This document shows, one piece after another, positions 16,576-60,800 of a stretch of 64,000 bases of DNA. Source of the DNA: Owenia fusiformis (taxonomy: Eukaryota; Annelida; Polychaeta; Sabellida; Oweniidae); contig CAIIXF020000004.1 of the NCBI GenBank assembly GCA_903813345.2, forward strand, positions 23,251,985 to 23,315,984. The letters run 5' to 3'. The translations under genes and the position numbers were made by a program. Each line of letters begins with the position of its first letter. Positions within the stretch are counted from its first letter, which is position 1. The notes below the pieces were generated by a model, which ran no database searches, was not told the origin of the DNA, and saw only the letters and a list, made by a program, of their open reading frames with translations.

Positions 16576-16999
16576 AAAATTTGCCGAATATAACTAATAA
16601 TGGGGTCCATTTCTTCGTAAACAGGATTTAGTAGACAACCCAGTGAAGACCCAGAGGTACCATACTTCTGGAGGGGGTGTACCTTGTTTGATGCTTTACG
16701 ATCGTGTTCACTTTGTGTATCGTATTCTTTGAAACCTTTTATCTCTTCCCTTCATTTTTAAAATGACAACACCTGCACTATACTTTTCTTAATAATCTTC
16801 ATACTTGGTTATTAATTAGGCGAAGCACAGTGCGAAGAATATATTTTCTTGAGTTTCTTCACACTTGCTTAAGCGAATAATCGTAAGTCAGCGTCTTATT
16901 TATCGATTTGCTCATAACGGTATTCATTCGCAATGTTGGCCGACTATACCATATCAGTGGCATGTACACACCTCAATGCTAAGTTAATTACAATTTGCG

Positions 17000-28535: not shown

Positions 28536-31500
28536 CTGAAACAAAAAATCATTATCCAAGTTTTATTATTTCATTATCCAAATTTTACTATCCAATTTTT
28601 TATCAAACATTTAAGCAATTTGTTATTTATTTTCAGAACTCGACATGTTCTTTGGTTTAAATCCAAAGAATTATTTTTCTTTGTCTCTTGAAAGCCCATG
28701 GGTGTAATACCAAATAATCTGCATTATCATTTCACAAAAATTTCAATCACAGGATTTCATTCATTTTTTCATTTCATTCATTTTTTTCATTTCATTTCAT
28801 CTTTTTCATTTCATTCATTGTTTTCATTATTTTCATTACAGTACTGTAAAATGGTAAAACCAGTTCAAACAGTAGAAACAGTTGCATTAATAAACAAGGC
28901 ATCAACATGTTACAAACACTAAAACACAGGACGCCAACCATCAACACAAAAATGGAGGCCATAACAATATGTCACCACTTTTGGGGGTGATATGTGGTGA
29001 AAGAATGGTTCATTTAACTGATTTAATATAGCTCTTTTTATAAAACAGACCCTTACCTCCAAAGTTGCTTCATAGATGGCACTGCTAGGTTGGGCCTGTA
29101 CTGTGACCTGGTAGGTCTTGGGTTCAAGGTCAAGCTGGTTGCTAAAGTTTGCCACTCTTTGGTAAGGATCTAAGGTTGACCATTCTTTTAACAACTGAAA
29201 CATAAAAAATGCGATATGAGAGCAATTCATAAATGAAATGTCTGATTTTCTAGCATTTCTATACAATTTAGAGTGTTAACAACATGGCCCTTTACTTAAT
29301 TCCATGCTAATTCCACTCATTTCTCTCTAAATTGTCTGATTTTCTGCCGTTTATATACTATTTAATGTCATACCAACATGGCCGTTTACCACTCTTCGTA
29401 AAACCCGATACCTTGTCTGATTTCTTGGTATCCCTACACAATTCAGAGTGTTAACTAAATGTCTCGCTTAATTTCTTACTAATTCCACTCTACATTACAA
29501 TGTATTTGATTTCTATATAATTCAGAATGTCTACTGTATGTCTATTCCTTGCTAATTTCACTTCTTTTCACTCCTTTTCCATTAAAAACATGTCAACTTT
29601 ATTCATCCTCTTGGATACATACCAGTTCTGTTGTGACGACAAGCTGGGCATCCAGAGTTTTGTAAAGTTTTTGTTCAGAGCAGACATCACGGTGATCCCT
29701 TGAGAGGAGATTTACTTTCTTAATAATTTCTAGGGATGCTTCTTCCACTGTTGGATCATCAACAGCAACTTCTTCGTACATAAGACATGAGCACCAATGG
29801 AGGTCAATACCTATAATATATCTGAATTATTAAAGGACCATGTAGGGTTTAAGGCATACATAAGACATGAGCACCAATGGAGGTCAATTCCTGTAATATA
29901 TCTGAATTATTAAAGGACCATGTAGGGTTTAAGACATACATAAGACATGAGCACCAATGGAGGTCAATTCCTGTAATATATCTGAATTATTAAAGGACCA
30001 TGTAGGGTTTAAGACATACATCAGACATGAGCACCAATGGAGGTCAATTCCTGTAATATATCTGAATTATTAAAGGACCATGTAGGGTTTAAGACATACA
30101 TCAGACATGAGCACCAATGGGGGTCAATTCCTGTAATATATCTGAATTATTAAAGGACCATGTAGGGTTTAAGACATAAATCAGACATGAGCACCAATGG
30201 AGGTCAATTCCTGTAATATATCTGAATTATTAAAGGACCATGTAGGGTTTAAGACATAAATCAGACATGAGCACCAATGGAGGTCAATTCCTGTAATATA
30301 TCTGAATTATTAAAGGACCATGTAGGGTTTAAGACATACATCAGACAAGAGCACCATTGAATACCAAGTGGCAATACCATACCAGTCCGATCCCTTTAAG
30401 AATTTTTATTAAAGGCCCTATGTAAAGTTTAAACCACTTTGGCTTATATTGTAGTCTTACCCAATGTTATCAAAGTGTGATATGTGAAACTTTTTTTTTT
30501 ATTTCAAAAAGTGGTTTTTGATGGACTTTTTGTTCCAAAATTTGTGAATTTATTTAAAACCAACTTTTAGAGGTCACTCATATCTTCTAATTAGCCACAA
30601 TTCATACCAAATGCCGAAAAAATTAAGAAAATCAGTTAATAAACAAGCGAGAAATGAAATTATCAGTGCATGAAAATGGTTCTGAGAAAAATGCATTTCA
30701 AAATTTTAGTTCTCATAGAAACCAATGGTACAATGATATCTAAAACATAATTTATTCTTCCTTTTAACCTGGTTAGATAATCAACATTGGTTTTTTATGA
30801 AAGTCTAGCATATTTAGAAAAGATTGACATCGAAAAAAAAAATTCAATTTTTTTCAAAAAGTTTTTGTTACCTTAGTGACATCACTAATGTTTCAAAATA
30901 TTTTTGTTAAGCTAAAACATTGAAGTGGCCCATTAAATATGACATTTTATTATTGAAATAGTGTGTCTTTTGTTCAATCTTTGCATTGGTGTTAAAAATA
31001 TAATCTTTTTTGAAATGCATTAAGAAATATTTGATGATTAAAAATTTCAACTTTTTTTGAAAAATGGCGGGAAATTTGAATATTTGAGAAATAAAATGCT
31101 CACAACTTTTTTTTCAAAAATTTTTTTCTCTAAAATCACTTTTTAAGTCCTGACAAATAGTAAATGAATGATGAAAAAATATTTTCAAACTTTAGACGGG
31201 GACTTTAATTATGTGAAATATTTGATGTTTTTGATATCAGGCATGCTGCCAGTTTTCAAACTTTTCTGAATATTTTTAGGAAGCCAAAACTCAACTTTAT
31301 TAATCGACAAATATCCTTTTTGGACATTAAATCTAAAAATTGCAAAAAATCAAGTTACTACATATATATATACAACTATACCTGCAGATGCACAAGTCCT
31401 GTTGAATGGTATATGTTTGAAAAGACTTATTCCACGGTCTTTATAGGTTGGTTTCTTTCGCCATCTTGATGTATCTATGACATCATAGAGTGTCTCGAAT

Positions 31501-34415
31501 ATGTCATATGGCGTTGTTAACCCTTCGCTGTTCTGTTTTAACATATTCATCTGGTTCGGGTAGGCTTTCCTAAAACATTTAGAGTGTCTCATATAGTACT
31601 GAACAAATTTTTTTAAAAGGCTTTAGTTAAGCTTTAATGTCCAGTTTAGAACCCCTATTCCAGAATCCATTTTCTAAAGTTAGAATAGTAGTTCTGAAAC
31701 AGGACATTGCGCTTGCTTTTCGGAACTTTTTGTTGGTAGTAATACAGTTGAAGCATTTAAATATGCAATATGTCTTCACATGTCATTTGTGACAGACGCC
31801 GAACATAAACCGCCGAACACCAACCACCGACCAAAACCACAAAAAATGTTTGGTGTTGACATAATACACTATGTAAGATGTTAAAAGATGGGGATATAGA
31901 TGGCAGTAATTAGTTCTGGTTGGGCTAGAATGCCATTACATAATATGTAGAAGTCTGACAATAGTTACTCTAAAGGACTAGAAGAGTGATCCACTTTTTC
32001 CACAATTAATTTGGACATTTCTGAATCTTTGATAGCTTTGATATTACATAAAATATCTCAAGTGTAAATGTTTATTTATGTGTAAAAAACATTGGCAAGG
32101 TTTTTGGAATGATTGCTTCTAAAATTTTACAAACTTGCTCTTTATAAAATATGTCGTATTAGATATAAAACCCCATTATGGAGTCAGCCCGTCTACCCCT
32201 CCCCCAACCTTGCCAACCAATGACTAGTTACACTGTCCTACCTGAACCATTTAGGTAAAGATATTGTCATCATTGGGAGCCTCTCTTCCAAACGACCTTG
32301 AATTGTGTCCTTTGCGTCATTAAACCTGGCACCATGGTCACTCATCAATATCAACATTGTATTATTAAGATGGTTGTTCTCGAGTAAATATCGTAATATT
32401 TCGGCAAAATCTTGGTCCATGTGACTTGCTGGATCATTGTGTTTTTGGGTCAGATCACGATGGAACCCAAATCCAAATTTCGGGTGTTCTTTATACGTGT
32501 CAAAAAATTGAGTAATGTACTCCAAAGTATACATATGTTTGGATTTATGTCCGAGGCAAAATTCCTCACTTGTTTTCTGCAAATCCGATTCCTCCGTAGC
32601 TAACCAAAATGGCCGCATGTAATGCATTGTGGGTTGAGTATCAAAGCCATTGAATTCAAGGTTAAAAGCACCACGATGGGGATTGTCCTCGGCAAACAGA
32701 GTTGCGTAACCTTTCGTTTCATATTTATTCCAAATAAATTCAAAGTTGTCAACATATGATGTTCCAAGTTTGTTCTTCCGAGTTTCTGGTACCTTTGGAT
32801 CTGTTAGGGCTTTACCTAGAAAAAAATCAACAAGTCTTTAACCAGAAATGTTCCGAACATTAGGCATTACCCCCAGATATGTAAGAGCATTACCTATTGA
32901 TACAACCAAAAAAGTGTTTCACCTCCAAATAAGACCAAGAGTTTTTGCCCTTACCACGAAATAATACCAACAAGGGCTTTACAAAGATATAAGACCAACA
33001 AGGGCTCTACTTTGAAATAAGACCAACAAGGGCTTTATTTAGAAAAATTGACAGGGGCTTTAATTAGAACTAAGACAAACAGTGACTTTACCAAAAATAA
33101 GACAATTGCTATTACATGTAGCAGCTGTAATCAAGTTTTGGTCTAAGAATGTTTTTTTAATTGAAAATTAGTCTTCACATTTTCATTTCTTATATTAACA
33201 TATTTTATTACATAATTTTATTGTACAATATATAAAATTACCTGTTAATAATGGAACTAGAGAACCTGCTGTTCCATCTCCGACCATATTATATCCATTC
33301 AACATAACGCTATCGAGTCGATCCTTCATGAATCGATATGTAAGCGGTAGTTTGCGCTGGAAGCTCAGCTGAGACATAGAGTCAATGGCGAAAATTAACA
33401 CGTTCATATCCAGCGACTCTTTGGTTCTTAAATCCGATTCAGACTTTATTTCATGTAATTGTTCCAAATGTTTTTGTTCAATGTTAACCTGGGTCAGGAA
33501 TTGGGTAATGACTCCAGACGATTTTGAGGGATTATTTTTCGATTGTAATTTCCTTGTTGAAACTGCTTCTTTTTGTGTGTTTATTGGACTTTGTTTGGCT
33601 TGTTTAACTTTTGGTTGTTTGTGTTTTGTTATCACTTGATTGTCGTGTTTAAGAGCTCCCTTTTGGATTGTTTTTGCTTGCTTTTTGGCATGTCTCCCGA
33701 TATTATGCTTGTTTGGTGAATGGAATTCACCCACTTTTTGCCCTTCATTATGATTGGTATTTATCTTATTCAATTTTTGCTTGACATCGGGAACAAGAAG
33801 ATTCGGCATTGAGATATGGTCAAGTTGTTTTAATTCCCGAGTTTTATGCACATCATTCTGGTACTGATCGTCACTCTCGCCATGTTCATAGCAGTCAATT
33901 CTGACGAAATCATCCAAAATTTTAACTGGACTTTTGAGATTAGTTATTGTGACAGGAGTCTTGTATTCAAAATGGTCTGTGTTTTCTTTCATTTCTATAC
34001 CTCTTATAACACATTTTGATACTTGTTTAGATATTGTTTTGCTGAGCGCAATATGCTTATCTTTAAATCTAGCGATTTCAACTCCATTGCATTGTAATTG
34101 TGGGAGCTCATTAAACGCTCCTTTGTTTGCGTCATGATGAAGGTCTAATTTAGGAGCCTTACACATTGGGCCGGAATCATCGTCAAAGATTTGTGTAGGC
34201 TTACTTTTCACATGTGTTTTTTTATGTCTATGATGGGTTCGATGTCTGTGTCCCATTAGATGTCGATTATGCAAATCCTCTTCTGTGATGTCATCATGTT
34301 TGACAAATGAAACCCCAGCGTAATAATTCAGAGCAAATAGTCCGAGTCCAATGACAAGAATGATCATAAATGTTTGCCCGATCTTTGATCTGCACCATCG
34401 CCCCCTTGTGGCCAT
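28401..34415 (-). CDS. DUF229 family protein, sulfatase/alkaline-phosphatase-like, six coding exons, 798 aa
   Basis: The exons are 34415-33242, 32815-32242, 31569-31382, 29810-29623, 29194-29057 and 28535-28401. Phases join exactly and total 2397 nt. Residues ~14-33 form a membrane segment after a short basic N-terminus: a type II protein facing lumen or exterior. A long basic, His/Lys-rich linker follows. The catalytic-fold domain starts at NVLIFAIDSMS (338-348, Asp345), then GDGTAGSLVPLLTG (379-392). MSDHGA (549-554; Asp551, His552) is the second metal-site motif of this superfamily. FGFHRDLT (~506) and a Cys-rich C-terminus (LRKFCHC) also match DUF229. The substrate is unknown for the family. 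Intron 3 holds an 80-bp array that duplicates the exon-4 acceptor. Confidence 0.9.
28741..28830. repeat. TTCAT-rich microsatellite
   Basis: Irregular repeats of 'ttcatttca' and 'ttcattca' in the 3' intron region of the DUF229 gene. Confidence 0.8.
28902..29012. repeat. Dispersed 'aacaaggcat..aacatg...gtcaccac' repeat
   Basis: One of about five related copies in the window: here, near 31773-31880, 34495-34570, 41725-41810, 44660-44800 and 54580-54860. They share 'acaaggcattaacatg', 'tgttacagacgcc', 'accaaccaccga' and 'ataacaatatgtcaccac'. All are short, non-coding and found within introns or gene flanks. Confidence 0.65.
29057..29194 (-). CDS. DUF229 gene, coding exon 5
   Basis: 138 nt, phase 0 to 0, acceptor TTTCAG, donor GAG|GTAAGG. 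Encodes LLKEWSTLDPYQRVANF...SSAIYEATLE, the beta-rich region before the C-terminus. Confidence 0.85.
29623..29810 (-). CDS. DUF229 gene, coding exon 4 (next to duplicated acceptors)
   Basis: 188 nt, phase 1 to 0, beginning GIDLHWCSCLMYEEVAVDD. The acceptor reads ATTATAG. At least six upstream tandem copies carry the better-looking ATTACAG followed by the same exon start. This nearest acceptor is the only one that keeps the frame: any upstream choice meets an in-frame stop. Confidence 0.85.
29783..30362. repeat. 80-bp tandem array spanning the exon-4 acceptor of the DUF229 gene
   Basis: 'agacatgagcaccaatgg' occurs at 29783, 29863, 29943, 30023, 30103, 30183 and 30263, with a broken eighth copy at 30343. 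Each unit, read on the gene's strand, carries intron tail, splice AG and about 28 nt of exon 4. The intron part resembles the 'attaaagg.cc.tatgta..gttta' repeat that also occurs at 30403-30432. Copies differ by only a few bases, so expansion is recent. Confidence 0.95.
30403..31340. other. Intron 3 of the DUF229 gene, T/A-rich
   Basis: Long A and T runs and 'tttcaaaa' motifs, probably a decayed dispersed repeat. No exon is seen. Confidence 0.4.
31382..31569 (-). CDS. DUF229 gene, coding exon 3
   Basis: Acceptor TTTTAG, donor CAG|GTATAG, 188 nt. Encodes the AYPNQMNMLKQN...TTPYDIFETLYDV segment typical of the domain's second half. Confidence 0.9.
32242..32815 (-). CDS. DUF229 gene, coding exon 2
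   Basis: Acceptor TTTTTTCTAG, donor AG|GTAGGA. Encodes residues 392-583, including VDNFEFIWNKY, LFAEDNPHRGAFN, the FWLATEE/C stretch and MSDHGA. The codon for Gly392 is split with exon 1. Confidence 0.9.
33242..34415 (-). CDS. DUF229 gene, coding exon 1
   Basis: Starts at ATG in 'aaaatggcc' and ends ...PLLT plus one base before a GTAATT donor (phase 1). It holds the membrane anchor, the basic linker and the first catalytic-fold motif. Upstream, 34416-34461 is 5' UTR preceded by a TTTCAG acceptor, so there is at least one intron in the leader. Confidence 0.9.
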
Positions 34416-34589
34416 TTTTAAAGTCTTTAGTGTTGACTTTACTTGTCCTGATGTTAATTTTCTGAAATCAAAAACAATGTAGAAGTTATATTGAACAAGG
34501 CATTAACATGCAAAATGTCACCACCTGCCATTTGTTACAGACACTGACCGCTAGAACTCCGAACACTGCGTCAAATGTGAAATTCCAAG

Positions 34590-41600: not shown

Positions 41601-42311
41601 AGGTGTAAAGAGTTGAATTCATCGCGTGTCAAGAGGTGTAAATAATTGGCACGTCTAGAAACCCGGCGTGTAAAGACCAGTTTCTAGACGTGTCAAGAGT
41701 TGGAATCCCATATTTCACGCAGTGGAATGCCAACTGCCGAACACCATCCACAAAAAAACTGGAGACTAATAGTAACAATGTGTCACTACTTGTGCTGGTG
41801 ACATAAAAACATTAGAAACTGAATTTCTAAATTGATCTAATAAACTTCAAATGATACAATGAATTCGAAGAGTATACATGCAGTTGGACTGTTCAAAAAG
41901 TCCAATGGTTTAGTTCCTAAAGTGTTTAGATAAAACATACTTTTAATGATGCATTTTGTGTACACTTAACCCAACAATGGATATATGTATACGTATATAG
42001 TCATTAAATCCCACAATTTTCAATAAATGACTTTAACCTGCTGTGATAAGAAGTTCAATGGGTCCAAAAATATGATCCCCTAGATAATATGAAGTGTATT
42101 GAACTAATTAACTGAGAAAGTGACACCACTAAATAAAATGGCAAGTTGCGAGTCTCATTTGGGAGATAATGGGATACTACTTAGGATGAAGCTTCTCAAT
42201 TATTGCATCATGTGCCCCATGAATTTTCATTATACTAATTATTTAATGATTTTCATGCACTTTTATACAAATTACCCTTTTGTAAACAGGAGTCAAGTTA
42301 GGATTCAAATT
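38601..42311. other. Intergenic, repeat debris and homopolymers
   Basis: Long C runs occur at about 40336-40345 and 40680-40694 and a G run at 40944-40954. 39620-39850 carries weak repeats of 'tggcattggt' and 'tggatatttg'. 41585-41710 is a copy of the 'cgtgtcaagaggtg' repeat. No coding exon could be supported. Confidence 0.45.
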
Positions 42312-42960
42312 AGGCGAGGCAAATTGAAATTGGTGAGGCAAATTGAAATCGGTGAGGCAAATTGAAATAAGTGAGGCAAATTGAAATAGGTGAGGCGAAT
42401 TGAAATAAGTGAGGCAAATTGAAATAAGTCAGGCAAATTGAAATAGGTAAGGCAAATTGAAATAAGTGAGGCAAATTGAAATAAGTGAGGCAAATTGAAA
42501 TGGATGAGGTGAATTGAAATAAGTGAGGCAAATTGAAATAAATGAGGCAAACTGAAATGGATGAGGCGAATTAAAATGGGTGAGGCAAACTGAAATAGGG
42601 GAGGCAAATTGAAAAAGGTGAGGCAAATTGAAATAAGTGAGGCAAATTGAAATAAGTGAGGCAAATTGAAATGGATGAGGTGAATTGAAATAAGTGAGGC
42701 AAATTGAAATAAGTGAGGCAAACTGAAATGGATGAGGCAAATTGAAAAAGGTGAGGCAAATTGAAATAAGTGAGGCAAATTGAAATAAGTGACACAAATT
42801 GAAATAAGTGAGGCAAATTGAAATAGGTGAGGCGAATTGAAATAAGTGAGGCGAATTGAAATAAGTGAGGCAAATTGAAATGGATGAGGCGAATTAAAAT
42901 GGGTGAGGCAAATTGAAATAGGTGAGGCAAATTGAAATAGGTGAGGCAAATTTAAATGAT
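42312..42960. repeat. 19-bp satellite, about 34 units
   Basis: Unit 'tgaggcaaattgaaataag' with variants (ataggtgagg, tggatgagg, aaaaggtgagg). The unit has no stop on the minus strand in any phase. As 19 is not a multiple of three, all three minus frames stay open for 100-226 codons with a 19-residue period (HLFQFASLISICLTYFNLP). I take these frames as artefacts of the repeat. Confidence 0.97.
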
Positions 42961-44123: not shown

Positions 44124-44228
44124 ATGGCTGTTTCGAGCGTCCATTTACAGTCTGATGCATATTTAGTATGCCTTACACACGCTTTGTCAACGGAAAGGGA
44201 AGAAATAATGGGGCTACTTATTGGAGAG
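44124..44228 (+). CDS. BRCC3: BRCC3 exon 1
   Basis: 35 codons, ATG in 'acaATGG', donor GAG|GTTAGT, phase 0. Contains the catalytic Glu27 and the VHLQSDAYLVCLTHALSTE N-terminus typical of BRCC36. Confidence 0.92.
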
Positions 44229-47200
44229 GTTAGTTTTATAATTCTTTTCAGTTTTTTTTTAGGATTCCTGCATCAGTTCTATTCCCATGGCACAAGCACA
44301 GGCCAAAAACTTCCCGGTAAAATAGTGTATTAAAATTGTATTTATTCTCTCCCTGGAGAAAGAGCAGACCAAAAACCACTATCCCAATAAAAGTCAGAAA
44401 TTTTTTTTTTATTTATCCTTGCCCTTCCACCTTCAGCTGTCATATTCTTTTCATTTGTTCATTTGCTAATGGTTAAAAATGCATGAAATCTAAGTCTATC
44501 AATAAATTATTATATGTAGATAGCTGAAATGGGTCATTTGTTTGTGCGACACTAAAAATTCATTGCTCACCTTCCGTTAGTATATTGTTTCAAATAGATA
44601 AATAAATATGTTTTGAGCAAAGATAAAGAGAGAAAGATAAAGACTGACAGCAAGGAGAAACAAGGCATTAACATGCAAAATGTCACTACCTGCCATTTTT
44701 TACAGACACCGACCATTGAACCCTGACTTCTGAACTCTGTCCAAAAAAATTGGAGACTATAATAATATGTCACCACTTCTGGTCACCTGTTGGTGAAATA
44801 ATGACTCACCATTATCAAACTCTAATATGTTTGGACATAGCTTTTGGGTCTGTTTTTTCTGGAGATAATGGTCAGGCCACAGGCTGCCACTGTTCTTCCA
44901 CCCAGATGGGCCACTGTAGATGTCCACTGTTGAGATACGTTCCTTTGTTTCCTCCCCTTCAGTATTATTGAATATTGAATCGTAACATGATTCATTGGTT
45001 TTGAAATAGACTCTATTTATTTGCATATTGTTATTTTGGGGGGAGCGAATGTTGAATTTTTTTCCGTTTTCTAAAAAATTCCTGGTTAGAACCCTGTTTC
45101 TATATATCTGTAATGATAGCAATTCACTCTCAAGTAACTAAAGGTAGTTTCATATGTTTATTGTTCAAACATTTTAATGGCTCCCTAGTCTGCTAGTAAG
45201 AGTGCCATCTTATTTTCAGGTACACAGAAACTCATTCAAATATATAAATTATACTTAGATTGTTTGTTGAAAGTTCAAAATATTCTACAATGTTTTAAAG
45301 TTATGAAAATTCAGTGACACTGACCTATTTTAAAAGTACAAAAATGTTGTCACTTTATTTTCTTTTTAATATCTAAAATATTTCTTAATTTAGATAAATG
45401 AAATGTAACATTATTTCTTGCTATAGCCCTTACAAAGTTGTGATATTACATGTATATGTAAAACATATTATATATAATGCAAAATAAAATAGTTTAAACC
45501 TTTTAAAATATTTTATAATCAGTTAAAATTAAGTCTAATTTGAAAATTAAGATTTTAGTTAAAATTAAAATATTAAAGTATTTTAATATTATTTTTAGAT
45601 TGATGAAAATAGGGTGTCTCACGTGTCAGCCGTAGTGGTGTTACGTCGATCAGATAAACAGCCGGACAGAGTTGAGATCTCACCTGAACAACTCTCAGCT
45701 GCAGCAAGTCAAGCAGAGGTGAAAATTCATATAGAAAAAAATCATGGTCTATAATATTCATAATTTCTAAGATAAATGTATTAAACTTGCATTTATTTAT
45801 TTATGTGGATATTATTTCTAATTGGATACTTTATATTTTACATTCATTAGAGATATCAATATCTTTCTCTAATAGAATATGTGATCCCTATCTAATGTTT
45901 GATTGTCAGATCTCTAGCCACTATCCAACGCTTAAATGTAAGAGCTTGTTCCAATGCTTATAAAATGCATCTCTAGCCAATGTCAAAGTGTTACATCTCT
46001 AGCTAAGGTACGGTGTAATATCAGATATTTAGCTAATGTTAATATGTCAAGGAACAAAATGTGTAAATGAAGTCTCACTTTTGATCTTCATAGTATTTTT
46101 GATAGGATTTTCAACCATACGCCATCTTTTAATCAAAGAGTTATTTAAAACATACACTTTGTGAAAAGTGGTAATTCACTTCTTTTGATCTCTGAATTCA
46201 AAATGCTGTTTTCTATGCAAGATATGTTTTTTACTTCAGTATTGACCCAATTAAAATTAAAGTTTTTATCATACTTGATTGAGTGTGTAACATGTCTCAA
46301 ATAATATTTTGTCCTTTTTCCTTCAAAAATAGGCCCATTGTCTGTTTAAATATTTCATCTCTAACCCAATTCTTACTGTTTGATCTTAGATGTAATATCT
46401 TTAGCTAAGACTGAATGAAATAGGATTCAAATATATTTTGCTATAATTACAGATGTTGGGGCAGGAATTGAAACGACCAATGAGAGTCCTCGGATGGTAC
46501 CACTCCCATCCTCACATTACAGTATGGCCTTCACATGTTGGTATGTAGTTCAGATGCACGATGTGCTTAAAATACACTTTATTTAAGATATAAAAAATCC
46601 TGTATCATTCTTTATTTGAAATTTAAAAGCAGCTACCCGCACACACAATGCACGAAGGCAGAGCCATATTACATTATCATAGTGGGTCAGTTCATGCAAT
46701 CATGCATGCATGCTTTTAAATCCAATGAAGAATGATACAGGGTCTTTCATTACAATCACTCCTTTATAAAAAATGGCATCGTTTATTTTATGATACCACA
46801 ATGCACTGGGATGACATCACAATTTTACCAAATATGGCATTGCTCAGCATCTTGATTCATCCAAGGTACATCAGACATATACGCTTACTTTACTAAGATA
46901 TGATTTATTTTTGTATATACGCTTACTTTACTAATGCCTCGGTCACATTTGCTCCGATTTTCACTACGGCGCCCGGCCGATCGGGCGCCGGCTGATGGAT
47001 CGGAGCAAATGTGACCCAGGCATAAGACATAATTTATTTTTGTATATACATGTATGCCAAAACTTATACAGTAAAGTGATCTGACAATTTTTAGCAAAAT
47101 GCGTGTTTCTCACAACAGTCATTCATTTGCATTATTCACATTTTCAAACTTATATACTCCAATAGTTCCATGAACTTCAAATTGAAAACAAAATTTATAA

Positions 47201-50200
47201 TTCCAGTGACCAACATCATATGAGTAAAATATTTGGTAGGTAAACCAAACTTTTTTAGTAAAAAATGTCAAATTGAAACCAAAATTGAAACCATCTCATT
47301 TTTGGCTCTTTTTTCCTCTCAATGTTTTACATTTAGACTAAAATGTATGCTAAAACATGTTTACGTATTATTTGTAGATTGTAGGACACAAGCAATGTAC
47401 CAGATGTTGGACGAAGGCTTCATAGGGCTTATCTTCAGTGTGTTCAATGATGATAAAAATTCAAAAGTAAGTGGGATAATTTTAGTCATATAGTCTTGCT
47501 CAAAGACTGTATCCACCCCCCCTCCCGTCACATTCACTCTCTTTACCTGGCAATATACCTGGAGAGAAGGATAAAGGGGGTGGGAGTACAGGGTCTTTTA
47601 AGCAAGACTATTAGTCATATGATTTTTATGTAGTGAGGATTTTGTAAAAGAATTGCAACATTTTTGGATTTAAGTCATGTATGTCATCCAAAATATCCAT
47701 GTTTTATCAAATTGCTCTTGAATCAACTCTGCTTGGAGTGAATTTGCTGTTTTATGGCCAACTCAATGAAGCATGAATACTTAAAGGAGTTATGAATTGG
47801 CCATGAAAAAGCAATCAAATTGTCAGTTGTCATAGTTGAATTCACAAATACTACCTTGGAGTGTGATTTTATTTTACACTTTTTTGAGTTAGATATAATT
47901 CGTAAATCTTGCTTTATCCAATCAGAATGCAGTCAATCAAAGGCATCTGCCCAATGAATATTAACAGTCACTGAATTTCCTGTTTTCATAAGAACCTGGC
48001 ATTTATTTCATATTGAAACTCTCATTTAAATGCCATGACAGCTACTTTTGTGCTCTTACCCAAGTGGTAAATGCACATTATACATGTAAAAGATTCTGTC
48101 AGAATTTCTTTATGAGGCGAAAATTCATTTTTACAGAGTGTTATGTACACTCTCCTGCATAAGTTTGACAACCAAATTTTTTCATTAGACAGCATAGCAA
48201 ATTTTTTCCTGGTTAAAACAGTATATGGAAATGTATGACTTTGATGAATTTTTTTAATTCCTAAATATAAACATGCTTGATAAGTGATTAAAAATGAGAC
48301 TTCCAGTTGTCAACATTATGGAGGGGGGCCAGGGGGGGTGTATCAGGTGAAACTTTCTGAAACGAAAACTTTATTTTTGTGTGTTGATATAATTAAGAAT
48401 TTTGTTTTTATTTTAGAAATCCACGTGTCAGGTCACATGTTTCCAGTCAACCAATCAGAGTCCAGAAGGAGAACCTCCGCAGTAAGTCCTATTTTACCCA
48501 AGAGGGGGAATACCCCAGAATTCATTGCTGAAACCATTTCCATATAAATATGAACCCTCTTTACTGGTAGACAGGTTCAACTATGAATTCTGGGAAATTA
48601 TCTTTGAAGTTTTCATAAAAGCTAATAAAACTACATACATTAAAGAAACAATTAATTATGTCAATCTCTAAATCTCTGGGGCTTTCCTCCTCTTAAATTA
48701 GAAGTAGAAATACAGCTCCTCAGACTCTTTCACTTCTTCCTCTTCCATTGTATTAAACATCACTTGTTGTCTGTTTCACTTAAAGCTGAAAAGTAAAATT
48801 GATTCGATATATATTTGAGAAATAGTTATTTTTGGGAGCTCTATTTTTATGGGGGGGGGAGTTACTCGATATATAAAGGAGATTATTTGGGACAGAAAAA
48901 GAAATTGTCATTAAATATCCTTAATTTATTTTCTTGATTTGTCAATTTTTCATATGAAGATGAAAAATTTATTGATAACAATTTATTTATCAACTTACCC
49001 ATCTTGATTTGAATTTGCTACTATTTAGACTTTACCCACGATATGCTTACATATTGACTTTACATAGTTAACAAAATAAACTTGTGAGAATGTCTCAAAA
49101 GTAACTACTTTGTGCCAATTTTTAGTATTTTTTGACCAATGTATTACTGTTACTTACTTGAACATTACTACCAATTCATCTCAAACTCTAATGTTGTTTC
49201 AGTTTCATCCTGGTGCTTCCATTGTAACTTGATGATTTCAGGTTCTCCTGTTTCTCTATATCTTTTCCATGTAGCATTTACATGCTCCATATCCACACTC
49301 CTCACATCAATTACTAAAGAGTGTGGTAATTCAGTCTCAGTAACATTGCAAATGCATGTTGGATCTAATAGTTTCTCCCACCAGCTACAATCACTGGTAT
49401 GTCTCACATGTTGTATCATCCAGAGTAACATTACATGTGTGGGCAGTGAGTATTCATAATATAGTACAATCTTCCTATGTGGATAGATTATGTCTGGTAT
49501 TTTCATAAGAATAAGTCCTTTTATCCTAAATGTATTCTGATGATAATCAATTGCATCAGTGTCCATATACATGTACTTGACAGCCTCAATGAAACATTCC
49601 CCTACTTGAGTAGACTGGCATTGCTGCTGGTGTTGCAACAGTAATGTTCTCAGAGCATAAGATGAAGGAAGCCAGTATTTATTTATATCCATATTATCAA
49701 GTAGATGAGCTGCATACTTGAATAGTAACAATAGTTGCTGATGGGGAGGTGTAAGTTGGTGGATGTTGTCATCAGGAGGATCTACCACAGACTCCATCCA
49801 ATGACTCACTGGGCAATCATCACCTTTATAGTCCTTAATAACCAGGACACTTCTCCCTAGCCTGTGTGACTTCTGCTTTATACAAAAGCAAAGGTCAATA
49901 TCTACAGTACATACTGGTCCACCAACACGTAGCCAAATACTTGGTCCGTGTAAGTATCCAAAGCCCCCCCTATGTAGACTTATGTCACCATGGTTGTATT
50001 CAGCATTGGTATCTCTTTTATGATCTCTAATTCCAATAAACTTGACATCATCCATGTTCTGAAGAGTGTTCACTACAGTGTCCAAGAGCAGAGGTTTAAT
50101 CAGATCGTATTCAATGTAGCTTTCACCTTCATGCTCCTTTATGCAGTTATCAGGTAGGGAATGCTTTAAAGACTCGCGCTTGACTTTAATGTGATAGACC

Positions 50201-53200
50201 CCCTGTCTGGTGAGCTTACACGCACTCACGTCCTTCAGCTCAATCATTTTACTATCAAACAAAGCTAGAATCGCAAGGAAATCATACTCATTGGGCTTCC
50301 ATATCTTGGTTCCATCATAGTAGCTTCCTCTACGAATGATCTCTTCCACTATCAAGGCTGGATTCTTGATACCAACTTTTCTGCAGATGGACTGAACCAG
50401 TTTTTCAACATAAGATGTCTGGAGTTCAAGTTCTGTAGGAGTATATCTATTCCTAATGTCAACATGGTATGAGACATATTTAACAAAGTTTGTTAGTCTC
50501 GATGTTTCATCTGTTGAATTGCTTGGTGTTGGAATGTCTGTGATTTCAATGATTCTCTTAGCTGCCTCTGTTATGTTTTTGAATGACAATGGAATATCTC
50601 TGACTGCTTCATTTATGTCTTTAGTTGCTTGAAGAATGTCCTGTTTTGACTTAGAATGAATTGTAGATGTACTGTGCTTGCCCAATGGATATGGTCCAGT
50701 AAACACAGGTTTTGAACTAGTGTTTTCCATTTTTCTATCGGATAAAATCACCTAACGAATCTCAGTCTTAAAGGGTATTGTCAAGTGAATACTGGTAGTT
50801 TTCCTGTATCCCTAGTCGCATATACCATTTTATTTTCCTCAACACTGAACAAATACTGTACTCCCGGTTAATTTTGCAAGTTTTAATTTCATGAATTTTG
50901 AGAAAACACGATTTGTACACCTCATGTACAGTAAGTACACCTACCTAATGTCATATTTGGATAAGATTTACAATTACTACTAGATATTGGCAGAGGCGTA
51001 GCTAGCCCATTTTGCGAGTGTACGCCCGTATGATTTTCCGGTTTTATCAAAATTATCAAAACGATGGTTCCATAAGATAGGAAGATCCTGGGTGTTCAGA
51101 AGATAGGGGACACACTAAACACTCTTAATTCAATGAAGGAAATATGTATTGTTTGATCATTTTGACATAGCTTTTTAAAGGGATTGAATTAACTGTATTA
51201 ACATAATATTCGGGAAACAAAATAGACAGATTCTATATAATCATGCCATCGGCGATCGAAGCCGTCTATCAAGGCGATTTTATTTTTTAAGCTACCTAAA
51301 ACTGTATGTATGAGGCTCATTGTTTTAAGCTTTTGTGGTCATTCCCCATAGAATATTATTACTTTTTCTGTGTTTGTTTTTATCTAGCTCACAAGATGAT
51401 TAACAATACACGACCGTCTCAACTCCATTTCGGATCTTAACAATCTGTACGTGATTCTATAGAATAAATTCTATCTTTCTGTTTTTTGCATTTGCGAACA
51501 TGTCAATAACAGTATCAATGTTTATATCCTGTTCCCTATGGATATGTATCATGGCCAAGGAAGAAAGTCTTTCCTCGTTCATTGTGGAACGCAAGTATGA
51601 CTTAACAGCTTAATGCGTTTCAAACTGCTAAAGCTTCGTTCAGCCACGCAAGTGGATACTGGCAATGTTAGCAGCTGGACCAAACACGTGTAGACATCGG
51701 GGTAAAGAGGCTGGGGGGGTCTGTTGAATAGTTAATCAGGTAAATTTTATTTTTCCTTAAAATTTGAGAGTATGCCTGGGCGTACTTGGCGTACACGTAG
51801 CTACGCCACTGATTGGTCAATGGTACGATGCACCTTAACCTCTATTACATCGTAATTTGTCGTGATTTTACCACAATCACAAAGGTGCAAAACTAAATCG
51901 CACATGAAAACTACTGGGAGTACAGTATACCTCTCGAACCTAAACGTTAAAATAGTGCTGTTTGACTAAAGATCATATATTATTACAAAATTAAGTTTTA
52001 ATTCGATGTTTTAGGAAGTATGTTAAAGTGATTTTCAGTTTCAGTTTCAGTTAATAATTAAACTTGTCTCGAAGGCCTGTAAAGAAAATGACATATTTTA
52101 GAATGTAAAATAGAATGGAAGAGAGGAAGTAAACAAGATAATGAACGGACACAATTTCAAAATTTAGATGATACATATACATTGACTAATCCTCTTATGC
52201 AAATTAACCTTTCTTTATTCATATAGTGATAAAAACGTAAAAAGTCTTTGTTTGCGCGTGCTATATATTATTTTGTTTTAATCATGATTAATTGCCTGAT
52301 ACTTTGCCTTGCTTTCTATTTTGAAATACTTTATCTATATACATTACATTTAGCTATCTTTAAAACCACCTTACAACAAATAATACATTTTTATGATCAA
52401 TATTACTGATGATTACAGATGATTTGATTGTACAGTTCTGATACTGAAACGATCTAAATGATCTCAATGTAGATTACATGGTCTTTTATGAGAGTCTGAA
52501 TGTGAAATGAATACAAATATGTTAGGTATGTTCGGTCAATATCATATTTCTTGAGGCCAATATAATATTTCCCAAGGTCAGTATCATATTCCCTTGAATG
52601 AAAATTAACATTGAAAGCCATACATGGAATAACCTATAAATAATTGAAGAGAGACTAGGCTGATACATATTCTTACTGGTCAGTATCAAGCGAAGGTAAC
52701 CGTTGTAACCTTCGCATCTAAGATGGCAGACAGTAATTGTCGATTTTGATACTAGATGCGAAGGTTATGGTTGTAAGTTGTTACCTTCGCTTGATACTGA
52801 CCAGTGATTATGTACATCGTTATGGTTTCAGATATACTAGGATAGAAGTTCCACTACACATTGTACCAAGATACTCCATAGAAACACCTTGTCTCAACTC
52901 TCTTATACAACTACCCCAGATCCTATGTACATTACATCATCTGTTCTGGTTTCAGATATACTAGGATAGAAGTTCCACTACACATTGTACCAAGATATTC
53001 TATAGAAACACCTTGCCTCAACTCTCTTATACAACTACCCCAGATCCTATGTACATTACATCAACTGTTTTTGTTTCAGATATACTAGGATAGAAGTTCC
53101 ACTACACATTGTACCAAGATATTCCATAGAAACACCTTGTCTCCATTCTCTTATACAACTACCCCAGATCCTATGTACATTGCAGCAACTGTTATGGTTT

Positions 53201-55162
53201 CAGATATACTAGGATAGAAGTACCACTACACATTGTACCAAGATATTCCATAGAAACACCTTGCCTCAACTCTCTTATACAGCTACCTCAGATCCTATGT
53301 ACATTGCAGCCACTGTTCTGGTTTCAGATATACTAGGATAGAAGTTCCACTACACATTGTACCAAGATATTCCATAGAAACACCTTGTCTCAACTCTCTT
53401 ATACAACTACCCCAGATCCTATGTACATTACATCAACTGTTTTTGTTTCAGATATACTAGGATAGAAGTTCCACTACACATTGTACCAAGATATTCCATA
53501 GAAACACCTTGTCTCAACTCTCTTATACAACTACCCCAGATCCTATGTACATTACATCAACTGTTTTTGTTTCAGATATACTAGGATAGAAGTACCACTA
53601 CACATTGTACCAAGATATTCCATAGAAACACCTTGTCTCAACTCTCTTATACAACTTCCCCAGATCCTATGTACATTACATCAACTGTTCTGGTTTCAGA
53701 TATACTAGGATAGAAGTACCACTACACATTGTACCAAGATATTCTATAGAAACACCTTGTCTCAACTCTCTTATACAACTTCCCCAGATCCTATGTACAT
53801 TACATCAACTGTTCTGGTTTCAGATATACTAGGATAGAAGTACCACTACACATTGTACCAAGATATTCTATAGAAACACCTTGTCTCAACTCTCTTATAC
53901 AACTACCCCAGATCCTATGTACATTACATCAACTGTTTTTGTTTCAGATATACTAGGATAGAAGTTCCACTACACATTGTACCAAGATATTCCATAGAAA
54001 CACCTTGCCTTAACTCTCTTATACAACTACCCCAGATCCTATGTACATTACATCAACTGTTCTGGTTTCAGATATACTAGGATAGAAGTTCCACTACACA
54101 TTGTACCAAGATATTCCATAGAAACACCTTGTCTCAACTCTCTTATACAACTACCCCAGATCCTATGTACATTACATCAACTGTTCTGGTTTCAGATATA
54201 CTAGGATAGAAGTTCCACTACACATTGTACTAAGATATTCCATAGAAACACCTTGTCTCAACTCTCTTATACAACTACCCCAGATCCTATGTACATTACA
54301 TCAACTGTTCTGGTTTCAGATATACTAGGATAGAAGTTCCACTACACATTGTACCAAGATATTCCATAGAAACACCTTGCCTTAACTCTCTTATACAACT
54401 ACCCCAGATCCTTTGCCAAGAAGAACAAGAAGCATACGAAAAGACTCTCTCACATGACTTAGATCTGTTAACAAGATTACATAATGGGGCAGGTGAGTGA
54501 TAATTGTATTACATTAGGTTTGTATAAGTAACCCCTTTTCCTCATCATATGTGATTTTTACATGAGATATATGAGACTTGTATGTCACCACCAGAACTGG
54601 GCAGTGGTTGATGTTCGGCGTTTATAACAGGGGTCTGTATCAAGTGGCATCTGTAACAGGTATCTGTAACAAATGGCATGTTAATGCCTTGTTTTTCATT
54701 TGTTATCACAAATGTTTTTCCCTATCATAGGCTTATTTGGCACCACCAAAAGGTGGTGACATATTGTTATGGTCTCTGTTTTTTTTGTGACAGTGGTTGG
54801 GGGTTAGCGATCAGCAATTGGCGATCTGTGGTTGGTGAACGGTGGTTGGCGTCTGTAACAAATTCTAAAACTTCCAATAACTAAACAAATACTGTTTAGA
54901 CTGACCATGAATACAAATCATACTTCCATGACAACAAAGATGTATTGAAATATAAAAAGCTCAATAAAACTATTATTTTCCAGTATACAGTAAATCACTT
55001 TGTGGAATCCTAGAAGTCATGGGCGCACCTACAATGCAAGCTTTAGAATCACGGCAACAGAGAAATAAGCAAAAGATACAACAGTTGCAGCAAGAGAAAG
55101 AAAAATTATTGAGACTTTTGAAACCAAAAGTGAGGACTCCAACAAAAACTACAAGGATATGA
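44124..55162 (+). CDS. BRCC3: BRCC36 (BRCC3) K63-specific JAMM deubiquitinase, seven coding exons, 272 aa
   Basis: The exons are 44124-44228, 45599-45718, 46453-46540, 47378-47466, 48417-48481, 54320-54492 and 54984-55162. Phases join exactly into 272 codons. BRCC36 is a zinc metalloprotease that trims K63-linked ubiquitin in the BRISC and BRCA1-A complexes. All JAMM residues are present: Glu27 (EREEIMG), His92 and His94 (GWYHSHPHITVWPSHV) and Asp105. Diagnostic blocks include VVVLRRSDKQPDRVEISPEQL, YQMLDEGFIGLIFSVF, YTRIEVPLHIVP and a C-terminal coiled coil (QQRNKQKIQQLQQEKEKLL). It is shorter than human BRCC36 (316 aa), mainly after exon 1 and in exon 5. Intron 5 contains a gene on the other strand and the array of duplicated acceptors. 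Confidence 0.93.
44810..45070 (-). CDS. Unassigned internal exon in BRCC3 intron 1, opposite strand
   Basis: A 261-nt stretch opens with acceptor ATTTTTTAG and closes with donor AATG|GTGAGT, phase 1 to 1. It is open in the implied frame for 86 codons, such as RVYFKTNESCYDSIFNNTE and VDIYSGPSGWKNSGSLWPDH. Two N-glycosylation sequons and two cysteines suggest an extracellular or lumenal protein. I do not recognise the family and found no partner exons, so it may be a nested gene piece or an exon relic. Confidence 0.4.
45599..45718 (+). CDS. BRCC3: BRCC3 exon 2
   Basis: 40 codons, acceptor ATTTTTAG, donor GAG|GTGAAA, phase 0 to 0. Encodes the LRRSDKQPDRVEISPEQLSAA block. Confidence 0.92.
46453..46540 (+). 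CDS. BRCC3: BRCC3 exon 3 (HxH zinc ligands)
   Basis: 88 nt, acceptor TTACAG, donor TTG|GTATGT. Encodes GWYHSHPHITVWPSHV. The last base is the first of the Asp105 codon. Confidence 0.92.
46935..47022. mobile_element. 88-bp MITE with TAA target duplication
   Basis: Terminal inverted repeats TGCCTCGGTCACATTTG / CAAATGTGACCCAGGCA match at 23 of 24 positions when extended to the ATCGGAGC core. TAA flanks both sides (46932-46934, 47023-47025). The adjoining direct repeat at 46881-46918 preserves the site without the insertion. The 3-bp TAA duplication suits the PIF/Harbinger group. Confidence 0.85.
47378..47466 (+). CDS. BRCC3: BRCC3 exon 4
   Basis: 89 nt, acceptor TTTGTAG, donor AAA|GTAAGT. Its first two bases complete Asp105, the third zinc ligand. 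Encodes RTQAMYQMLDEGFIGLIF. Confidence 0.92.
48417..48481 (+). CDS. BRCC3: BRCC3 exon 5
   Basis: 65 nt, acceptor TTTTATTTTAG, donor GCA|GTAAGT (phase 2). Encodes CQVTCFQSTNQSPEGEPP, matching the family's 'TCFQS' strand. Confidence 0.88.
49168..50730 (-). CDS. cGAS-like / Mab-21 nucleotidyltransferase-fold protein, 520 aa, single exon
   Basis: One uninterrupted frame from ATG (context AAAATGG) to stop. After ~100 helical residues the fold opens with RRGSYYDGTKIWKPNEYDFLA: the Gly-Ser pair is 135-136 and the acidic pair Glu148/Asp150, as in cGAS-like receptors and Mab-21 proteins. VCTVDIDLCF supplies the third acidic residue (Asp277 or Asp279). The C-terminal helical half has LTPPHQQLLLLFKYAAHLL and SSYALRTLLLQH, typical of Mab-21 domains. 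All three metal-binding acids seem present, so it may be an active cyclic-dinucleotide synthase; many relatives are not. No cGAS-type zinc thumb is obvious. It lies antisense inside BRCC3 intron 5. An AATAAA lies about 180 bases past the stop. Confidence 0.85.
   Translation of the reverse strand: MENTSSKPVFTGPYPLGKHSTSTIHSKSKQDILQATKDINEAVRDIPLSFKNITEAAKRIIEITDIPTPSNSTDETSRLTNFVKYVSYHVDIRNRYTPTELELQTSYVEKLVQSICRKVGIKNPALIVEEIIRRGSYYDGTKIWKPNEYDFLAILALFDSKMIELKDVSACKLTRQGVYHIKVKRESLKHSLPDNCIKEHEGESYIEYDLIKPLLLDTVVNTLQNMDDVKFIGIRDHKRDTNAEYNHGDISLHRGGFGYLHGPSIWLRVGGPVCTVDIDLCFCIKQKSHRLGRSVLVIKDYKGDDCPVSHWMESVVDPPDDNIHQLTPPHQQLLLLFKYAAHLLDNMDINKYWLPSSYALRTLLLQHQQQCQSTQVGECFIEAVKYMYMDTDAIDYHQNTFRIKGLILMKIPDIIYPHRKIVLYYEYSLPTHVMLLWMIQHVRHTSDCSWWEKLLDPTCICNVTETELPHSLVIDVRSVDMEHVNATWKRYRETGEPEIIKLQWKHQDETETTLEFEMNW
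50991..51811 (-). mobile_element. hAT transposon remnant
   Basis: Ends CAGAGGCGTAGCTA / TAGCTACGCCACTG are hAT-type terminal repeats (CAGnGGCG). ATTGG flanks both sides (50986-50990, 51812-51816). On the minus strand 51480-51690 translates as a hAT dimerisation domain (CVAERSFSSLKRIK, then after a frame break MNEERLSSLAMIHIH). The rest of the transposase is missing, so it is an inactive internal deletion. It sits between the cGAS-like gene and the 124-bp array in BRCC3 intron 5. Confidence 0.8.
51817..52674. other. BRCC3 intron 5, nothing recognised
   Basis: AT-rich intronic sequence without an exon or repeat that I can name. Confidence 0.4.
52675..52805. mobile_element. 131-bp hairpin MITE
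   Basis: The left arm 'actggtcagtatcaagcgaa' and its exact complement on the right extend for 26 bases; inner 'ccttcgcatct' / 'agatgcgaagg' arms also pair. It abuts the start of the 124-bp array by four bases. Confidence 0.8.
52809..54412 (+). repeat. 124-bp array: acceptor plus 5' part of BRCC3 exon 6, 13 copies
   Basis: The exon-6 start ('ATATACTAGGATAGAAG') occurs at 52832, 52956, 53080, 53204, 53328, 53452, 53576, 53700, 53824, 53948, 54072, 54196 and 54320: exactly 124 bp apart each time. Each copy has 'gtt.tggtttcag' or 'gtttttgtttcag' before it and ~92 nt of coding sequence after it, then 'atgtacatta..tcaact'. Copies 1-12 lack a donor. An upstream acceptor would add 42 codons and then read ATA TAC TAG, a stop. 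Copies differ by 0-5 bases. Confidence 0.97.
54320..54492 (+). CDS. BRCC3: BRCC3 exon 6 (last of 13 acceptor copies)
   Basis: 173 nt, acceptor GGTTTCAG, donor GCAG|GTGAGT. The first base completes Gln156 from exon 5. Encodes YTRIEVPLHIVP...LPQIL and CQEEQEAYEKTLSHDLDLL. Only this copy of the repeat continues past 'cagatcct' into real exon and a donor. Confidence 0.9.
54580..54860. repeat. Dispersed 'gtcaccacc...caaggcattaacatg' repeat, inverted pair
   Basis: Two halves in BRCC3 intron 6 share 'tgttacagacgcc'-type and 'gtggtgacat' motifs with copies at 28.9, 31.8, 34.5, 41.7 and 44.7 kb. Confidence 0.6.
54984..55162 (+). CDS. BRCC3: BRCC3 exon 7 (terminal)
   Basis: Acceptor TTTTCCAG; 58 codons and TGA. 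Encodes VYSKSLCGILEVMGAP and a glutamine/lysine-rich coiled coil, matching the end of BRCC36 that contacts the Abraxas-type scaffold. Confidence 0.9.
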
Positions 55163-57672: not shown

Positions 57673-57860
57673 CTAATGTCCAGATGAGGACGTGGACCTC
57701 TCTCGTTTCTTTGGGATGACGAGCACTGGGATATGAGCGTGATGTAGGACGTAATCCGAGACGGAACCGAGGAAAGTACGCCTCACTGCTCCCATACCAC
57801 GTGATCCCATAACAACCATGGTTCCCTTGAGTTCTTCGGCATAGTGCACGATAGCAGTAC
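57673..57860 (-). CDS. USP gene, terminal exon
   Basis: 188 nt, acceptor TTTCTGTAG, phase 1. Encodes GTAIVHYAEELKGTMVV, the ATP-binding loop, the IPVLVIPKK strand and a short Ser-rich tail before TAG. Confidence 0.92.
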
Positions 57861-60800
57861 CTACAGAAAGAAGATATGAGTATTATTTTGTCCAGTTGTT
57901 GAATTGAATGGAACTTTAGTCGGTATGTTGTCGGTATGTTTTTGGCGATTGTATGCTTAATATTATTGATATATTTATCCATATTTAGATAGGATAGCAA
58001 TACTGTTAGAGGTCTACAATTGTATAATATATCATCTGACCATAGCTTAATTTGCATTACTCGTCACACGAATGAAATGTTGGCATTAAAATTGGGCATT
58101 TACAACTTCTAATTGAGCAAATAATATAATACATGTAATTCCTTTTCTTATTGAAGTGATCGAATGCAAAATAGTATTTGACCCCTTTGGATGATAGAAC
58201 TAATTACATTCATATCAGTGCCATGGCCCTATTTTACATACTAGTACTGGCAAATGCATTGAAGAGATACAACTTAGGCATTCCACTCTTAAACCTTTTT
58301 ACCATACAAAGAAAGAATTATGTACTAGTATAATTTATAGAGTTTCACGGTGTACTAACATAACGCACCTCCATAAACGTGGCCCAACCCTATTCTATAT
58401 TTCCCTTTAGAAAAAGTTATTTAAAAAACTACAAAATGTTCGTATTGTATACGACTAATAATACGAGGAAATGCAGGCCCAAATTGTGTACTGTTATTAG
58501 CCAATTAGGTCACATTATGGATGTATAGCAACCCGGACAACAAACACCAAGGTAATAATGGCTTCTATACTTTTGCTATAGTGATTAGGCTATTGCCCCA
58601 CTATTTATTTTCCGAGTTCCAGTTAAAACACAACGTGATCTGTTTCAACTTCACACTAGGACAAAATTTGCAGGGATCTATTCCAGTTTTCTCTTCTACC
58701 CACTGACATGGCTGACCCGGGGCCACCAATTTAATTAATTTGCAATATATTGAAGTTTGAGAAATAAATGAAATCAAGCAAATCGTTACTCCTTCAACTC
58801 TGCAAGTGCAAGGTCTTGGTCGATACTCGGCAACAATTTCGAAAATATATACAATTTTATAATAAATCAAATGTTTGCTAATAAAAAATACAAAGTATAT
58901 AATGCATTTTAGATGAGATTATTACATGAAGTTCATTAGTTACCCCACTCATACTCTTGAGAAATAAATAAAATAGATAAAACAAATATATAAGCTATCT
59001 CACCTGGATTGTTGTTAACCTGGTGATGTGTCTTGCCTTTCATCTACAACATAAGCAAATATTCATTTGAGATTATTATATGAATCTAGTACTAATACTG
59101 ATATCATTAAAGTGACAACAGAGAATCTTTGCAATTTTACTATTATAAGTTGGGATTTGTTTTATTTTATGGATGAAATATATTCAAATATATTTAATAT
59201 TTTTACGATATATAATCGTCAATCTAAAATGAATACAGAGTGGTCCAGAAACGCACATATACAGTTTTTTATTTGTCAATAATTTTGATAATGCTTAGAT
59301 TTCAGAAACAACGGTTGATGGAGATACGTTATTCATAAACAATTGTTGCTGAAATAGAATTAATGAATCTCTATGGCTATATGGCTATATGAATAAGTGA
59401 ATAATAATATTCTAAGTCATAAAGAAGTTTTTGGGCCACCCTGTAGTCATGTCTACTACTTGTGTAGTACTATGAGGCAGATAAATGAATAAATAAAAAT
59501 ACAAATTTTGCAGATATCAAGCATTGGCTAATGTGCATCGTTTGTGCTTATTCCTTAAAATATCTACGTAAAATAAAATATAATTGTAGTGTCGTTAAAT
59601 GAAAATGTCAAGTATAAAAACAAATTACAATAAACTATGAATCTAAATAATACGGAGAACACCGCATTAACCAAAACATAAAAACAAATATGAAGATAGA
59701 GGCTGTAAATTGCAATGTATTGCAAGAATATGAATCTATTATGCAAGAGACAGTAAGAATCAATAGTAAATGAAGCAGCTTGTGTTTGCAATAAGAAACA
59801 TAAAGAGAGAAAGCATTTCCGAAGATGTTTAGCACTACATCAGAACTGTGTTGTCTGTGAACAATAATCATGATTCAAAACCATTGTTCTCTAGTACTGT
59901 GATTTTAGCGAATACATTTTAGAGATTTGTATAATTTGACATTGTAATCATTCAATTTAGAGTTGTTGTATTTTGCAAGCTGCAGATATAAATGGGTTCA
60001 GAAAGACCTGTGTAACTGGTAAACAACACCATGGAGAAATGTGTAATTAATTGAACATATTGATCCGCATGTGACCTTTCAAATGGAATAAATGCCCGTA
60101 TTAAGGATCAATTATTCTTGCTTTGAAATACAATCTACAATTCTACCTCAATTCATCATCGTACATAATATTCGTTTGAATTCCATTGGGTTTCATCAAA
60201 CTGAGAAAGTACGAGGGTTGATCATAAAGTTATCATAAATCTCTCTATTTTTATGAAATATCTTTATGACATTTTCACAGAATATGTAGCATAGAATGAC
60301 ATATTAATCCAGCAAAAATATGTTGCCATAGCAACCAAAACTCAGACACTCATTTGAAGATATAAAATATTGAACATTTTATTGCACAAACTATTTCTGT
60401 TAATGTTTGCAATGCTAACTTCGTTTCTTAATCGTCAATTATCAGTTGAATATGACAATGTCTGTTGAAATAAAGCAGAAAACAATAAAGCCACATCTGG
60501 AACATGGAATTCCGCATGAAAATAAATGTCTGTAGAGGTCAAGGGAGAAAAGATCAGCATAAATGACGCTAAGAAACTATAAAATGTAAATGAATTCTAT
60601 TTCTAATAACAACATTTTCAATGCACGAGCCATGCAAATATCTTACATTCCTATCTTTGAGTTTCCCTTCATATTTTTTCATCAGATTATCAACAATTTG
60701 CCGGTCATCCTGCACCATTGCTTGAAAGACTTCCGCTAGAACACAACATCGAGAAATTAGCTTCTTTAATTCAACAGCCAAGAAAATGGTTGAAGCATGA

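Follow-up and report, generated by a model that had tools for sequence, protein, structure and literature searches.

The BRCC3 gene of the annelid Owenia fusiformis carries a tandem array of 124-bp units lying across the boundary between intron 5 and exon 6, and twelve near-identical copies of the splice acceptor stand upstream of the working exon. The array is probably a boundary-spanning minisatellite of the kind called mirage in amphioxus, sitting in an intact gene, in which the thirteenth acceptor is used and the twelve decoy copies exchange sequence with the working exon. The gene was read in a window of 64,000 nucleotides, the whole stretch of DNA analysed here.

BRCC3 lies completely within the window, on the plus strand, and is composed of seven coding exons separated by six introns, all of which are bounded by GT and AG. 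The joined exons form an 819-nt coding sequence for 272 amino acids and are arranged as follows, the slash marking the splice site.

44124 to 44228, plus strand: exon 1, coding part, with the ATG.
45599 to 45718, plus strand: exon 2.
46453 to 46540, plus strand: exon 3, carrying the HSHP portion of the JAMM motif.
47378 to 47466, plus strand: exon 4.
48417 to 48481, plus strand: exon 5, donor GCA/GTAAGT.
54320 to 54492, plus strand: working exon 6 (copy 13 plus the remainder of the exon), donor GCAG/GTGAGT, identical in the recorded protein.
54984 to 55162, plus strand: exon 7, coding part, ending in the stop codon TGA of the 819-nt coding sequence.

The best matches of the encoded protein are structures of BRCC36 (5cw6_A, DrBRCC36, E 8.7e-101), and both the JAB (PF01398) and the BRCC36_C (PF18110) domains are found above the Pfam cut-offs, the latter spanning residues 176–255. 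The protein retains HSHPHITVWPSHVD, with the JAMM motif HSHP...D at residue 92. Furthermore, the Owenia fusiformis protein P0001, the first of 1965 protein-database matches (120 of them listed), is identical over 272 amino acids to the reading through copy 13. The structure match, the domains and the identical protein thus confirm the gene as BRCC3/BRCC36, as the sequence-only reading of this DNA had named it, and the gene in this window is intact.

Several other features lie in and around BRCC3. A 527-amino-acid open frame (49168–50751, minus strand) is nested antisense in intron 5 and contains a Mab-21 domain (PF03281, E 2.8e-07); we take it to belong to the cGAS-like family. In intron 4, a G+C-rich inverted repeat (46936–47024) was seen by eye in A+T-rich surroundings. 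BRCC3 is flanked on one side by a DUF229/sulfatase-like gene (28919–34502, minus strand; the domain scan left out 28919–29275) and on the other by a piece of a universal stress protein (57676–57882, minus strand). Two 105-amino-acid open frames on opposite strands (2787–3104, plus; 3594–3911, minus) have identical translations and therefore mark a long, near-perfect inverted repeat. Judging from their motifs, the open frame at 16319–16597 (plus strand) presumably resembles a piece of a reverse transcriptase, and that at 51579–51731 (minus strand) a piece of a hAT transposase.

The array and the element directly before it occupy the following positions.

52662 to 52818, no strand assigned: inverted-repeat element with arms of 39 nt, 85% complementary, and inner arms of 15 nt.
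52819 to 54412, plus strand: 124-bp minisatellite, 12.9 copies by Tandem Repeats Finder (TRF), across the boundary of intron 5 and exon 6.
52832 to 54319, plus strand: twelve decoy copies, each with its own acceptor, 93 nt of exon-6 sequence and then intron-derived sequence.

TRF reported a period of 124 with 96% matches, 0% indels and a score of 2929. The unit joins 31 nt from the end of intron 5 to the initial 93 nt of exon 6. An exact search recovered the acceptor string TTTCAG/ATATACTAGGATAG in all 13 copies, in steps of exactly 124 nt, and the acceptor with its exon start, TTTCAG/ATATACTAG, is likewise intact in every copy. The first exonic bases fall at 52832 + 124k, the last at 54320. 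The intron part of copy 1 is shortened by our reading, to 22 instead of 31 nt. Only copy 13 is joined to the remainder of exon 6 and its donor, at the exon end 54492. The boundary location, the thirteen copies, the twelve near-identical acceptors ahead of the working one and the confinement of the donor and the remainder of the exon to the thirteenth copy had all been proposed from the letters of the DNA, and TRF and the exact search agree with each of them; the exonic part, put there at about 92 nt per copy, is corrected to 93 nt.

The unit has no match elsewhere within the window (blastn, E ≤ 1). The arms of the inverted-repeat element lie at 52662–52700 and 52780–52818, the second ending where copy 1 begins, and no further match to an arm was found within the window. 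It is only a guess that the element is a small inverted-repeat transposon that perhaps helped to start the amplification. Six other TRF rows in the window, two of them overlapping, have scores of at least 590 and units of 19–127 bp (328–1390, 7234–7662, 8344–8694, 29777–30356 and 42311–42957; units 111, 127, 87, 68, 80 and 19 bp). Tandem arrays are therefore common in this window.

When the exon 5 donor (48481) is joined to any of acceptors 1–12, the reading ends at codon 200, a stop located in the following copy (12 of 12), 124 being 1 modulo 3. In all twelve cases the stop precedes a later junction, and its distance to the last one ranges from 164 to 1528 nt, depending on the decoy acceptor. 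A premature stop in such a position is what typically exposes a transcript to nonsense-mediated decay. The product of a decoy acceptor would lose most of the BRCC36_C domain. Skipping of exon 6 leads to an early stop as well. These results bear out the earlier expectation that any upstream acceptor brings a premature stop, and of the mechanism built on it, the forced choice among thirteen acceptors and the penalty for a wrong choice stand, while regulation by copy number is still hypothetical.

We considered what could direct splicing to acceptor 13. Between positions −20 and −4, copies 1–12 have 9 to 12 pyrimidines out of 17 (12 in copies 2, 3, 6, 7 and 10), copy 13 has 11 and the five other introns of BRCC3 have 10 to 12. 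By pyrimidine count, the decoys are thus not weakened relative to copy 13, and the selector must be something other than this measure of strength. An extra AG 20 nt ahead of the acceptor occurs in copies 4 and 5 only (upstream of 53204 and 53328). From the coordinates, the distance to the upstream donor differs little between acceptors, from 4.35 to 5.84 kb. The distance to the next donor differs most among the copies, being 173 nt for copy 13 and 297 nt for copy 12, and rising to 1661 nt for copy 1. Under exon definition, the longer exons of the decoys should be recognised less readily than one of 173 nt, and exon definition is therefore the likeliest selector of acceptor 13. Within the decoy units, the best GT matches 5 of the 9 donor positions of CAG/GTAAGT, as compared to 8 of 9 for the exon-6 donor, although these counts are crude, as one real BRCC3 donor also scores only 5 of 9.

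The use of acceptor 13 itself is read from the recorded protein, whose source annotation drew on ab initio prediction as well as on RNA-seq. The excerpted account of the published annotation describes RNA-seq junctions combined with ab initio prediction, and states RNA-seq support for 99.29% of the annotated transcripts (PMC9977687). Querying the protein database with a decoy tail returned P0001 only and no protein ending in that tail, and the 68-amino-acid frame of one decoy returned no candidate there; both are weak negatives.

Taken together, these observations suggest the following course of events. A minisatellite would have happened to span the intron-exon boundary, placing twelve copies upstream of the working exon. 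Acceptor 13 would be chosen because no other acceptor is paired with a strong donor at the distance of a normal-sized exon, 173 nt; with the earlier ones, the exons would measure 297 to 1661 nt. The decoys would leave with the spliced-out intron. Leakage, most likely to acceptors 11 and 12, would end at the codon-200 stop and probably in nonsense-mediated decay. Meanwhile, the copies and the working exon may exchange sequence by unequal crossing-over or conversion, as the codon-phase pattern described below suggests.

The same anatomy could instead be a dosage device, as the sequence-only reading had it: acceptors 1–12 would compete with the last one, a share of the transcripts depending on copy number would be degraded, and the length of the array would set the level of BRCC36. 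The acceptor string is indeed kept in every decoy, with pyrimidine counts that bracket the 11 of copy 13 (9 to 12 of 17), and every decoy leads to a stop 164–1528 nt upstream of the last junction. However, the rule of exon definition makes exons of 297–1661 nt less favourable than one of 173 nt, no protein with a decoy tail was found in the database, and splicing is reportedly undisturbed in the amphioxus cases (PMC3087553, PMC3902484). By analogy, these cases of the same anatomy would argue against a strong effect of the decoys on splicing. We regard the dosage device as unlikely.

The differences among the copies carry a further signal, which fits a boundary minisatellite that exchanges with its working exon. 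Eleven different changes from the consensus are present among the 13 exonic copies, and nine of them are silent in the BRCC3 frame, as compared to 3.4 expected when the same changes are placed at random matching bases (permutation P 0.0008). This excess rests on 11 changes and was spotted by eye first and tested afterwards. It persisted without the last codon (P 0.0016), with the two-change codon of copy 3 counted once (8 of 10 silent, P 0.002), with the two changes of copy 13 set aside (7 of 9, P 0.005) and under the assumption that all changes are transitions (P 0.011 for at least 8 of 11). In each of the other two frames, only one of the 11 changes is silent. Changes common to at least two copies are all silent (5 of 5, P 0.002), and so are four of the six confined to a single copy (P 0.09); the two missense changes are in copies 3 and 12. 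When the same frame is continued through the intron-derived part, two of seven changes are silent (one-sided Fisher P 0.04 against 9 of 11), these seven being drawn from copies 2–13, as copy 1 was excluded for its shortened part.

The twelve decoys thus seem to be untranslated and yet look shaped by protein selection. Neither the intron-derived part, which lacks the silent bias, nor the poor donors support translation of the decoys themselves. The copies more probably used to be working exons themselves or derive from such exons. The 93 exonic nucleotides of copy 13 are identical to those of copy 10 and differ from those of copies 11 and 12 by two and three changes. Given that copy 13 matches copy 10 rather than its neighbours, we infer exchange by unequal crossing-over or conversion. 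Variants are also shared among copies 7–9, among copies 3, 6, 7 and 10, and between copies 10 and 13, a distribution within one haploid sequence that concerted evolution would fit. If the copies exchange with the working exon, the changes spreading in the array would be those tolerated by the protein.

In a simulation, neutral decoys were allowed to exchange sequence with a last copy under selection. Without selection, the silent fraction of the decoys was 0.22–0.26; exchange with the selected last copy raised it to 0.45–0.52, and to 0.37–0.46 among shared changes. The observed 9 of 11 was never reached in simulated samples with 9–13 variable sites (0 of 30, 0 of 360 and 0 of 1018, the samples being correlated). 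A smaller first simulation gave silent fractions of 0.22–0.54, and none of its 23 samples with 9–13 variable sites reached 0.8, while a simulation with exchange near the 3′ end was far too diverse to be informative (mean 131–266 variable sites). The simple simulation therefore fell short of the pattern that suggested that the copies and the working exon exchange sequence. Either the exchange is more one-sided than simulated, or several alleles of the working exon were captured as the array grew, or the pattern is partly luck.

A more far-reaching version would treat the working exon and its twelve copies as one exchanging pool through which protein selection reaches untranslated DNA; the exchanges would also swap the number and strength of acceptors, and alleles would differ in their loss to nonsense-mediated decay. 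We hold this version to be possible but doubtful.

It is very improbable that the array, or its length, is an artefact of assembly. The copies match at 96%, and polishing with short reads can mix such copies; in amphioxus, the authors called the draft assembly of the BflGb6 array aberrant, according to the excerpt of PMC3087553. On the other side, the excerpted description of the published Owenia fusiformis assembly gives PacBio reads from the sperm of one male with an N50 of 25.75–30.75 kb, polishing by Arrow and, with Illumina data, by Racon, and subsequent purging of second haplotypes (PMC9977687). If the window comes from this assembly, as the identical protein suggests, such reads far exceed the 1.6-kb array, and the copies differ in an ordered way, the neighbours 7–9 for instance sharing changes. 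Reads that cross the whole array and ordered differences make an artefact unlikely, while polishing could affect the exact copy number and single-base differences.

Even less credible is that the decoys serve as cassette exons that stay in frame, 111 or 117 nt long and adding 37–39 residues each, a use that would account for the codon-phase pattern. Including a single 111-nt pseudo-exon, whichever of the 12 decoys supplies it, does keep the frame to the normal stop, and the exonic changes are mostly silent. However, the required donors ACT/GTTCTG and CTG/GTTTCA match only 2 and 4 of the 9 positions, the 117-nt version gives a stop in some decoys, the intron-derived part of the same frame is silent in only two of its seven changes, and the recorded protein is free of any such insert. 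Single pseudo-exons ending at the GTs at 16, 31, 59 and 95 nt run into a stop in all 12 decoys. Finally, that this BRCC3 is a silent copy with the working gene elsewhere is hardly tenable, given the complete frame, GT-AG at all splice sites, the retained HSHP...D, the recorded protein identical to this reading and the lack of any further protein labelled Owenia in the 120 listed matches (of 1965), many of them without a name.

A boundary minisatellite exchanging with its working exon would make BRCC3 a natural experiment with thirteen near-identical acceptors at growing distance from the next donor, among which the spliceosome has to choose. The test bed is a conserved DNA-repair gene, in a species whose RNA-seq data (project PRJEB38497) and long reads are publicly available according to PMC9977687. 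The codon-phase pattern in seemingly untranslated copies appears to be new here and was unexpected, and it offers a way to gauge the extent to which selection on the protein, through exchange with a working exon, can shape adjacent DNA beyond the reading frame. As far as we searched, annelids are a phylum new to boundary minisatellites: the literature matches listed held no annelid case of a boundary minisatellite or of duplicated splice sites, and a search for Owenia with minisatellite found nothing.

Among known systems, a human minisatellite with multiple splice donors reportedly likewise multiplies a splice signal, but it is said to have a short unit carrying a donor and to give alternative products, whereas the BRCC3 array multiplies acceptors, all but the last of which lead to stops. 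Test genes of the 1980s with duplicated splice sites reportedly also placed competing identical sites in one transcript; they are said to have been made by hand with two or few sites, whereas the BRCC3 array is natural and has thirteen. In the RdRp gene of potato, a tandem duplication spanning an intron-exon boundary gave rise to an additional intron, and the duplicated segment, as excerpted, holds a putative branch site, a pyrimidine tract, an acceptor and an exon start (PMC4974935), which resembles the BRCC3 unit. In potato, however, the copies number just two, and activation of a cryptic donor, GTAAG, created the new intron (PMC4974935), while the best GT of the BRCC3 unit matches 5 of 9 positions.

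The closest likeness is to the mirage minisatellites of amphioxus, described in Adh3, the globins BflGb6 and BflGb9, TnC and PGBD5 in the excerpts of PMC3087553 and PMC3902484, the latter covering the Adh, TnC and PGBD5 cases. The BflGb6 units of 150–160 bp comprise the 3′ end of an intron and the 5′ part of exon 2, number 6 and 3 in two haplotypes and evolve in concert, and RT-PCR suggests that regular splicing is not interfered with (PMC3087553, excerpt). The BRCC3 unit likewise spans an intron-exon boundary; its splice signals are kept in 13 of 13 copies, as they are in many amphioxus units (PMC3087553, as excerpted). The recorded protein matches acceptor 13, so far as a protein record can speak to regular splicing. 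Three differences emerge from the same excerpts. The host here is an annelid and the gene another one, with 13 copies as compared to 6 and 3 in BflGb6. Array length differs between BflGb6 haplotypes, whereas the BRCC3 array is known from one haploid sequence. The boundary of the BflGb6 cluster is said to escape homogenisation, whereas the working boundary copy of BRCC3 matches copy 10 at all 93 exonic nt. The kind is thus already known from amphioxus, and the BRCC3 array is a further case of it, which extends boundary minisatellites beyond lancelets to an annelid.
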